Assembly (NCBI GenBank): GCA_017437755.1 | Contig: JAFRXI010000029.1 | Coordinates: forward strand, 1 to 49,012 | Direction of reading: 5' to 3' | Source: Bacteroidales bacterium | GTDB taxonomy: Bacteria; Bacteroidota; Bacteroidia; Bacteroidales; UBA932 | DNA: 49,012 nucleotides | Part shown: piece by piece, positions 22,337 through 49,012 of the stretch | Position numbering within the stretch: position 1 is the stretch's first letter | Layout of the letters: each line of letters begins with the position of its first letter | Notes under the pieces: model-generated | What the model was told of the DNA's origin: nothing | What the model saw: the letters and a program-made list of their open reading frames with translations, nothing else | The model's database searches: none | Program-made: the position numbers and the translations under genes

Positions 22337-22358
22337 TATTGCTAAAATCGATAGCCAA

Positions 22359-23321
22359 GTGAAAAATGTTCTCATCATAGGCTCCACCGGGCAGATCGGG
22401 TCCGAGCTCACCATGAAACTCAGGAACGATATCCCCGAAGGCAGCATCGTAGCGGGATTCATAAAGGGCGCCGAGCCCAAGGGAGAGCTTCTGGAAAGCG
22501 GTCCTGCCGAGGAGGTTGACGTCAGGGACGGTGCCAGGATCGCCTGGATAGTGGACCGGTACCGGATTGACACCATCTATAACCTTGCCGCCCTGCTCTC
22601 GGCCGTAGCGGAACGTAAACCGCTGGCTGCCTGGGACATACAGATGAACGGCCTGCTGAGCATACTGGAAGTGGCCAGGGAGAAGGGATGCGCCGTATTC
22701 ACGCCCAGTTCCATCGGGTCCTTCGGTCCACTCACCCCTCACGACGGCACTCCCCAGGACACCATCCAGCGGCCCCTGTCGATGTACGGGGTAACAAAGG
22801 TTGCGACCGAACTCCTGAGCGACTACTATTTCCATAAATACGGTGTAGACACCCGCGCAGTGCGTTTTCCCGGGCTTATTTCATACGAAACCCTGCCGGG
22901 AGGAGGCACCACGGATTACGCCGTGGAAATCTTTTACGCCGCGGTAAAGGGCGAGGAATTCGTCTGCCCCATCGGCGCCGGGACTTTCATGGACATGATG
23001 TATATGAGCGACGCCCTCAAGGCCGCCACCGACATAATGAATGCCGACCCGTCCCGCCTGGTGCACCGCAACGCATTCAACGTCACAGCAATGAGTTTCG
23101 ATCCGGAAATCCTGTATCACAAGATCCGGGAGCGGATACCCGGCTTCAGGATGCGCTATGAGGTGGATCCGGTTCGCCAGGCCATAGCCAACTCCTGGCC
23201 GGACAGGATGGACGACAGCTGCGCCCGGGAGGAATGGGGATGGAAACCGTCGTTCGGGCTGGACGAAATGGTCGATGATATGATCCTTAAGCTGAGGCTT
23301 AAATTTGGTTACAAAATGTAA
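22359..23321 (+). CDS. L-threonine 3-dehydrogenase, short-chain (SDR) type
   Basis: With the GTG at 22359 as start, the product is 320 residues and begins MKNVLIIGSTGQIGSEL, as usual for SDR-type threonine dehydrogenases. A TTG 11 codons upstream is in frame, but the TATATTTG box at 22329-22336 overlaps that stretch, so it is not coding. The NAD site is GSTGQIG, the catalytic pair is Tyr and Lys in SMYGVTK, and SSIGSFGP holds the active-site Ser. It oxidises threonine to 2-amino-3-oxobutyrate, the Kbl substrate. This type is unrelated to the zinc-dependent E. coli Tdh. Confidence 0.92.
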   Translation: MKNVLIIGSTGQIGSELTMKLRNDIPEGSIVAGFIKGAEPKGELLESGPAEEVDVRDGARIAWIVDRYRIDTIYNLAALLSAVAERKPLAAWDIQMNGLLSILEVAREKGCAVFTPSSIGSFGPLTPHDGTPQDTIQRPLSMYGVTKVATELLSDYYFHKYGVDTRAVRFPGLISYETLPGGGTTDYAVEIFYAAVKGEEFVCPIGAGTFMDMMYMSDALKAATDIMNADPSRLVHRNAFNVTAMSFDPEILYHKIRERIPGFRMRYEVDPVRQAIANSWPDRMDDSCAREEWGWKPSFGLDEMVDDMILKLRLKFGYKM

Positions 23322-23486
23322 GCACTACTTATTTTTTTGATTACGGCATATCAGTTTAACGGGCCATACTCATACAACAAACGCTACCCTGAAGGATAAT
23401 ATTAGATTTTTCAAATGCGTAAACAGCTTTAAATCAGCCTTTTAGAAAAATTATTAAAAAATATTCAAAAAAATCTTTTGAAAAAA
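23322..23486. other. AT-rich intergenic stretch behind tdh
   Basis: The 165 bases contain no gene. A small dyad TTACA-AAA-TGTAA covers the tdh stop and is followed by a T-run, a weak terminator at best. The rest is A-rich DNA of the kind that often lies upstream of strong promoters as an UP-like region. Confidence 0.4.
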
Positions 23487-23517
23487 TTTGCAAATCAAAA
23501 TAATTGCACTACCTTTG
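23487..23517 (+). promoter_or_regulatory. Consensus promoter of the short transcript upstream of the lytic transglycosylase
   Basis: TTTG (23487-23490), 19 bases and TACCTTTG (23510-23517) match the Bacteroidota consensus exactly, preceded by A-tracts. Transcription should begin close to 23524. No other -7 box is visible before the lytic transglycosylase ATG at 23661. Confidence 0.85.
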
Positions 23518-23523
23518 TAACCG

Positions 23524-23642
23524 GATTGAGCCAATGGGGTTCTCTCAGTAAACTCAATCTATTGGTTATTAGTTTTAGTGTTATTAATTATGTGGTTAGT
23601 ATGAGTGGTCCACGCGGGATGCGTCGACGACTCATTTTTTTT
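23524..23642 (+). ncRNA. Candidate leader RNA or sRNA, about 119 bases
   Basis: The transcript expected between the consensus promoter and the intrinsic terminator has no reading frame of note. At its 5' end GATTGAG (23524-23530) can pair with CTCAATC (23553-23559), while CCAAT in the loop (23531-23535) can pair with ATTGG just behind the stem (23561-23565), a possible H-type pseudoknot. The 3' end is the terminator hairpin. It does not match the SRP RNA core, tmRNA or a riboswitch I can recall. It is either an independent sRNA or a terminating leader that controls the lytic transglycosylase. Confidence 0.6.
23601..23642 (+). terminator. Intrinsic terminator in the lytic transglycosylase leader
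   Basis: ATGAGTGGTC (23601-23610) pairs with GACGACTCAT (23626-23635) with one G-G mismatch, the inner ACGC/GCGT extends the stem, and eight T residues follow. It ends only 18 bases before the ATG at 23661. Its loop contains GCGGGA (23614-23619), the exact complement of TCCCGC at 23654-23659, next to the start codon. Confidence 0.85.
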
Positions 23643-23660
23643 GTATAAACCAGTCCCGCC

Positions 23661-24539
23661 ATGAAAAAGATCCTCTGCCTGCTGCCACTGATTATCATCT
23701 GCACCGGAGCCTCCGCCCAGTGGTCTCCCCTCCCCGGTCCGATGCACACCAAGGCCCCTTCAGTGCCCGCCTATGCCGTATTCGCCGGAGATACCGTGAG
23801 GTTTGACCGGCAGGACTACCGGGAACGTATGGACCGCGAACTGCTGTCGTTCACCAACATGCACACCAATTCCACGCTGATGCTCAAGCGCTCCAGGCGG
23901 TTTTTCAGTATCGTTGAGCCCATACTCCGCAAGTGGGGAATCCCCGACGACCTCAAATACCTGATGGCAATCGAGAGCAACCTGGACCCGTCGGCGGTAT
24001 CACGCACCGGGGCGACCGGCCTGTGGCAGTTCACCAAAGCCACCGCGCAGACTTATTCGCTGGAGGTCAATGCCGAGGTGGACGAAAGGTACAACATTGA
24101 GAAAGAGACGGTTGCCGCCTGCAGATTCTTGAAGGACGCACGCCGGAAATACGCCGACTGGATGACCGTCGCCGCCAGCTACAATGCCGGCCAGGGAGGC
24201 ATCTCCAGAAGGCTTGAGCATCAGAGGCAGAGAAGCGCCATGGAACTATGGCTCCCGGAGGAGACCGCACGCTACATGTTCCGGCTGCTCACCGCCAAGA
24301 TTTTCTTCGAGAACCCCTCCGCCTTTGGCTTTGACATCGCTCCTGAGGATTATTATCCGCCCCTTAAGGTAAAGAGGACGGTCACGGTATCGGAAGCAAT
24401 CCCCGACCTGGTGGAGTTCGCCATCTCGAACAAGACCACGTACGCCGCCATCAAGGAAGCAAACCTCTGGCTCCGTGACGACCACCTCACCAACAAGTCC
24501 GGAAAGACCTACACCATAATCATTCCGGAAAAGCTGTAA
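23661..24539 (+). CDS. Secreted lytic transglycosylase (SLT/MltD-like)
   Basis: After a signal peptide (1-19, ending GASAQ) the 292-residue protein carries a family-1 lytic transglycosylase domain (about 85-210): catalytic Glu in AIESNLDPSAVS, TGLWQFTKATA and AASYNAGQGG. It cleaves peptidoglycan glycan strands, leaving 1,6-anhydro-muramic ends. Unlike many MltD proteins it lacks a recognisable LysM repeat; the C-terminal 70 residues (VKRTVTVSEAIPDLVEFA onward) may be a degenerate one. It appears to depend on read-through of the terminator at 23601-23642. Confidence 0.9.
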   Translation: MKKILCLLPLIIICTGASAQWSPLPGPMHTKAPSVPAYAVFAGDTVRFDRQDYRERMDRELLSFTNMHTNSTLMLKRSRRFFSIVEPILRKWGIPDDLKYLMAIESNLDPSAVSRTGATGLWQFTKATAQTYSLEVNAEVDERYNIEKETVAACRFLKDARRKYADWMTVAASYNAGQGGISRRLEHQRQRSAMELWLPEETARYMFRLLTAKIFFENPSAFGFDIAPEDYYPPLKVKRTVTVSEAIPDLVEFAISNKTTYAAIKEANLWLRDDHLTNKSGKTYTIIIPEKL

Positions 24540-48895: not shown

Positions 48896-48900
48896 CGAAG

Positions 48901-49011
<111 letters not shown>

Positions 49012-49012
49012 A

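Follow-up and report, generated by a model that had tools for sequence, protein, structure and literature searches.

Two small RNAs of Bacteroides thetaiotaomicron are the closest described systems to the locus considered here. FopS, a family of 14 sRNAs, is described as blocking susC start regions with its seed, an action that is opposed by the protein RbpB (PMC11697453). GibS, as the accessible text of its report has it, is about 145 nt long with a seed within the first 30-50 nt (PMC7366714).

We studied a locus on a 49,012-nucleotide stretch of Bacteroidales DNA, hereafter the window, which is an entire contig and carries a 5S rRNA at its very end (48900-49012, - strand). The locus is a conserved stand-alone RNA gene. 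The core is invariant, the 5' stem covaries, and the promoters differ from copy to copy. Its parts and neighbours are the following.

22338..23321, + strand: NAD-dependent epimerase/dehydratase gene (PF01370), the upstream neighbour, outside the RNA (protein domain, flank clusters)
23487..23517, + strand: sigma-ABfr-type promoter of Bacteroidetes, TTTG-N19-TACCTTTG (sequence, and spacing in homologous copies)
23523..23560, + strand: 5' hairpin with stem 23523-23530/23553-23560, inner stem 23535-23538/23544-23547 and TTCT in the arm (fold and covariation)
23564..23599, + strand: invariant 36-base core, the proposed seed (alignment, genome pattern counts, susC complementarity)
23601..23642, + strand: intrinsic terminator, a hairpin with a GNRA-type loop followed by eight T (sequence, fold)
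23661..24539, + strand: lytic transglycosylase gene (PF01464), the downstream neighbour, outside the system (domain, tblastn)

The promoter proposed by an earlier note on this DNA is present in all its parts, with TTTG at 23487, TACCTTTG at 23510-23517 and a spacing of 19 bases, which is kept in 104 of the 132 homologous copies having a TAnnTTTG box near the core. Boxes of this kind are by themselves not rare in the window, where five fits were found (three on the + strand, two on the -). The predicted 121-base transcript has a folding energy of -32 kcal/mol (z -2.5; 2/200 shuffles equal or better), and its fold contains the expected stem between GATTGAG at 23524 and CTCAATC at 23553. The pseudoknot that had been suggested between CCAAT and ATTGG falls away, as CCAAT lies within the 5' arm of 1/121 homologous copies, the sole one being the window's own. 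The terminator was recovered as described, with a hairpin at 23601-23635 and eight T ending 18 bases upstream of the ATG at 23661; a simple terminator scan did not pick up 23601-23642, probably due to internal mismatches. The core at 23564-23599 is absent from that sequence-only note. It is unpaired in the centroid fold and weakly paired in the minimum-energy fold; the segment between 5' hairpin and terminator is AU-rich. The comparison with Rfam that the note had proposed (Rfam 15) gave no family at the gathering threshold on the RNA, and the two matches below gathering scores (E up to 5) do not lie on the core.

Set beside the available text on FopS, the candidate RNA shares the character of multicopy paralogous sRNAs (1-4 copies per core-positive genome, one in the window's own, against 12-15 for FopS), sigma-ABfr promoters, a conserved seed with a terminator after it, and probably the direction of that seed at susC translation-start regions, here by predicted complementarity. 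A further likeness is that one FopS member is 3'-UTR derived and one phage copy is reported (PMC11697453). The two differ, as far as that text goes, in that the core here usually lies behind a 5' hairpin (121/163 copies) and directly behind the promoter in 12/163, and in that sigma-54-type promoters and tRNA-Cys neighbours occur too. They also differ in the partner protein: an RRM_1 (RbpB-type) protein was found in 0/5 genomes of the core-bearing genus (G000, G016, G041, G531, G548), whose inferred name is probably Ca. Cryptobacteroides, and in 2/3 genomes of sister genera. We do not file the RNA as FopS because no RRM_1 protein was found in these five genomes and because FopS was compared by description, not by seed letters. 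The likeness to GibS, within the accessible part of its report, consists in a trans-encoded RNA with a long unstructured seed, which in GibS pairs at start codons; GibS differs in its length of about 145 nt, its other targets and its seed in the first 30-50 nt (PMC7366714).

A blastn search with 23470-23660 gave matches in 26 of 41 genomes, several of them covering the promoter alone and one antisense (G027); 21 of the 25 genus genomes in that set are core-positive at up to three mismatches. When the homologues are aligned, the 36-base core is the same in nearly every row and both hairpins vary. At the same tolerance the core is present in 162/200 genus genomes and in 72/79 good ones, and the matches among those listed are exact except for 11. 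An order-wide sample contained it in 2/295 genomes, both genus members. Within the family, a 26-base piece of the core was found in 11/149 genomes, every one of the 11 in the genus, and in none of the 138 that represent 24 other genera; with the pattern reversed as a control, 2/149 matched. Searches of phage and plasmid collections gave no match. Among the records listed (at least 80), many come from ruminants or horse. No paper title reporting this RNA was among the matches listed by a literature search. The core could serve as a clean marker of the genus.

For the anatomy of the element we gathered 163 distinct copies by an exact 31-base core match, so sameness of the core is built into this set and is no separate evidence. 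They include three viral copies and the two of a doubtful inverted pair (L011:1501-1750, at a contig end, where an assembly artefact is possible). The order TAnnTTTG, 5' arm, core is found in 121 of the 163, a promoter with the core straight after it in 12, and the core directly 3' of a tRNA gene in nine; 13 are without a TAnnTTTG box and eight lie at contig edges. The preceding tRNA is tRNA-Cys(GCA) in 9/9 cases (ARAGORN; L029, L032, L069, L072, L299, L302, L325, L355, L387). At these loci the sRNA resembles a trailer, and some of the contig records stop within the hairpin. The sequence TGGCAC-N5-TTG, which we take to be a sigma-54 promoter form, occurs 16 or 53-55 bases upstream of the core in 9 of the 13 box-less copies (L023, L063, L066, L306, L308, L335, L371, L377, L397) and is absent from all the rest (146) of the 155 copies that were classified. 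RpoN was found in 7/7 genomes tested.

The 5' arm contains TTCT in 102 of the 121 copies that have it. Compensatory changes occur at all six alignment pairs of the 5' stem among 61 sequences; the doubly changed cells number 37, where shuffles give 11.7 (0/500). Pairing stands at 84 %, and a one-base shift of the partner lowers it to 48 % or 35 %. These values come from 61 of 68 sequences, four having been omitted for odd terminators (L014, L019, L311, L353) and three for a short or different 5' arm (L005, L015, L301); the omissions favour clean stems, and the tested stem was derived from the same sequences. Terminator hairpins of at least seven pairs were counted in 155/155 copies examined, without a shuffle control; 10/155 terminator regions have no T run by the pattern used, and the pair types vary among copies. 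Terminator pairs were counted by script from individual folds, and both terminator counts are biased towards pairing by construction. RNAalifold placed a weak fold within the invariant core, and a covariance model on that fold was not used.

The idea of susC as a target arose when the ORF starts in 400 kb of G016 were scanned and two SusC-like genes stood among the six best. We scored susC genes (TIGR04056) from -50 to +15 against the core and its dinucleotide shuffles, with start codons chosen by a signal-peptide rule under which some rows may be wrong; related susC genes are non-independent samples. The discovery set (n=30, five genomes, six of the genes from G000 and shared with the own-genome set below) has a mean of -16.2 compared to -12.5 for shuffles (z -5.8, 0/200). 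A further set from four genomes (n=56 of 58; L223 and L231 have no usable start codon) gives z -5.3 with 0/200 shuffles. The first G016 sample had already contained one susC of the discovery set and three of the 58 in the further set, and a held-out set of 52, from which those three and one near-duplicate were removed, gives z -4.3 (0/500). One susC from each further core-positive genome (n=29 of 30 other genomes; L447 was dropped for want of a usable start codon) gives z -3.4 (0/200); the mean is shifted in this set, yet no site reaches -20 kcal/mol.

The signal has a clear position. When 80 susC genes from four genomes were scored in 16 windows, -40..0 alone stood out (z -4.8, 0/100); the next, -20..+20, has z -1.7, and the other 14 show nothing. 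Exact 8-mers of the core complement in susC starts number 87 against 20.0 expected from shuffles (0/1000). The matches are scattered across most of the core, although the GTGGTTAG end is hardly used despite being equally invariant. The longest uninterrupted match is 13 bases, and most predicted pairings are interrupted.

Statistical complementarity is limited to susC start regions in genus genomes. In sister genera without the core, 29 susC from six genomes give z -1.1. The mean over 301 ORFs of all kinds in the G016 sample is not enriched (z -0.8); the tail at or below -22 of these same ORFs is, with 4 against 0.8 (0/60). Scanning all positions of 400 kb of G016 gave 134 sites at or below -20 kcal/mol against 125, 86 and 94 in three shuffles, and 39 at or below -22 (two of which are the sRNA's own copy) against 26, 18 and 18; there is no clear general excess. 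The complementarity to susC starts is seen in four genomes and in the 29-genome set and is not significant in the window's own genome, where 40 susC (67 candidates, 44 scored, 40 fetched) give z -1.4, a value reached by 39/500 shuffles. The 8-mer count there is 6 against 4.9 and the 7-mer count 26 against 15.5, reached by 53/1000 shuffles, and 262 start regions in a 400-kb sample of that genome show no excess complementarity. Either the window's species has few susC targets or the core has another duty.

Outside the family, the hpf start region of G027 (L057, ~1360-1391) agrees with the complement of the core at about 25 of 26 positions; hpf encodes a ribosome hibernation factor, and the match may be chance or a shared start-region motif. 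As a target within the genus, hpf was rejected, since the match is missing from every hpf locus of the genus that was examined.

We propose, with a probability of about 0.6, that the locus is the gene of a trans-acting sRNA that silences susC translation by pairing of its core with the start region. We infer transcription, the actual base-pairing, the repressive outcome and the inducing signals from the sequences. An RNA of about 120 bases would act in trans, its 36-base core serving as a long seed that would pair with A-rich sequence in the 40 bases upstream of start codons, in mRNAs of many SusC-type outer-membrane transporters (sugar importers). Pairing would block ribosome loading, as with the FopS sRNAs in Bacteroides. 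Separate mRNAs appear to match separate parts of the core, and the core would be mostly frozen because different mRNAs would use different parts. The paralogues would place one seed under various promoters, such that several signals could silence one set of importers.

Three of the four matches on viral contigs (IMG/VR) are true core copies, each with a hairpin and a T run.

L055:5567-5598, + strand: directly after a gene for a phage-type NAD-dependent DNA ligase, with an integrase gene following, on a contig that also has a Mu-type portal gene
L056:809-840, + strand: likewise directly after a gene for a phage-type NAD-dependent DNA ligase, with an integrase gene following
L054:6140-6171, - strand: about 40 bases 3' of an integrase gene

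A match in L452, added by a shorter viral pattern, was set aside as a chance match with other flanks.

The earlier note had favoured a cis-acting attenuator or riboswitch, an RNA that would sense something and accordingly either terminate transcription or let it run on into the lytic transglycosylase gene. The 18 bases from terminator to start codon speak for it, as does the complementarity between terminator loop and start-codon region in the window's genome; TCCCGC does stand next to the start codon, but its complementarity to the loop involves a gene that was not found next to any of the other copies. Of 162 loci that bear a copy, some with short flanks, tblastn (E up to 1e-10) places the transglycosylase at a single one, that of the window. 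The nearest downstream ORF is on the opposite strand at 90 of 142 copies and on the same strand at 52, and the largest flanking-protein cluster is that of the window's upstream epimerase/dehydratase, found at 26 copies, always upstream and on the same strand (12 copies in the flank analysis overlapped a called ORF). Conservation lies in the core sequence and not in a gene downstream. We reject the attenuator because of the single locus with the transglycosylase, the opposite-strand downstream ORFs and the conservation in the core; the near-absence of the pseudoknot partner and the lack of an Rfam family also argue against it, and we consider it the most improbable of the readings weighed here. 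Read-through into the transglycosylase may occur in the window's genome alone, since only 18 bases separate terminator and ATG. The independent sRNA, which the note had given as its alternative, is supported. A mobile or phage-derived repeat spreading in the genus without a regulatory role would account for up to four copies per genome, for contigs that terminate in copies and for the presence on three viral contigs. However, the 5' stem has diverged with pairing retained and the core has not, so the element is old and selected; most copies retain promoter and terminator, and none of the nine largest flanking-protein clusters shown looks transposase-like by eye. We regard such a repeat as very improbable.

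More serious, though still unlikely, is the reading that the RNA acts in trans mainly on something other than susC. The core would then be frozen by a single invariant partner, either a protein binding U-rich single strands or another RNA, and use of susC would be minor or lineage-specific. In its favour, the window's genome keeps the core intact despite the non-significant susC complementarity there, the GTGGTTAG end is invariant while hardly used by susC, and a seed is seldom as long as 36 invariant bases. Against this, complementarity is limited to start regions and to the core-bearing genus, and neither the 400-kb G016 sample nor the ORF starts of the G000 sample offer another clear partner.

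SusC-type proteins can be phage receptors. It is conceivable, as a long shot built on the silencing of susC proposed above, that one frozen seed is a common antisense signal against SusC importers for the genus and its phages. Hosts would express it from sigma-ABfr, sigma-54 and tRNA-Cys promoters. Phages carrying the seed behind DNA ligase or integrase genes would use it to close down surface transporters once they have infected a cell, and perhaps to keep out rival phages. No RbpB-type protein would take part.

If silencing of susC by this RNA is true, the silencing of glycan importers by sRNAs that Bacteroides is known for would extend to an uncultured rumen and gut genus, where it would operate with different promoters and apparently without an RbpB-type protein. 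The invariant seed of 36 bases would be unusually long, and its presence on viral contigs as well as 3' of a tRNA gene prompts the question of who controls SusC levels.
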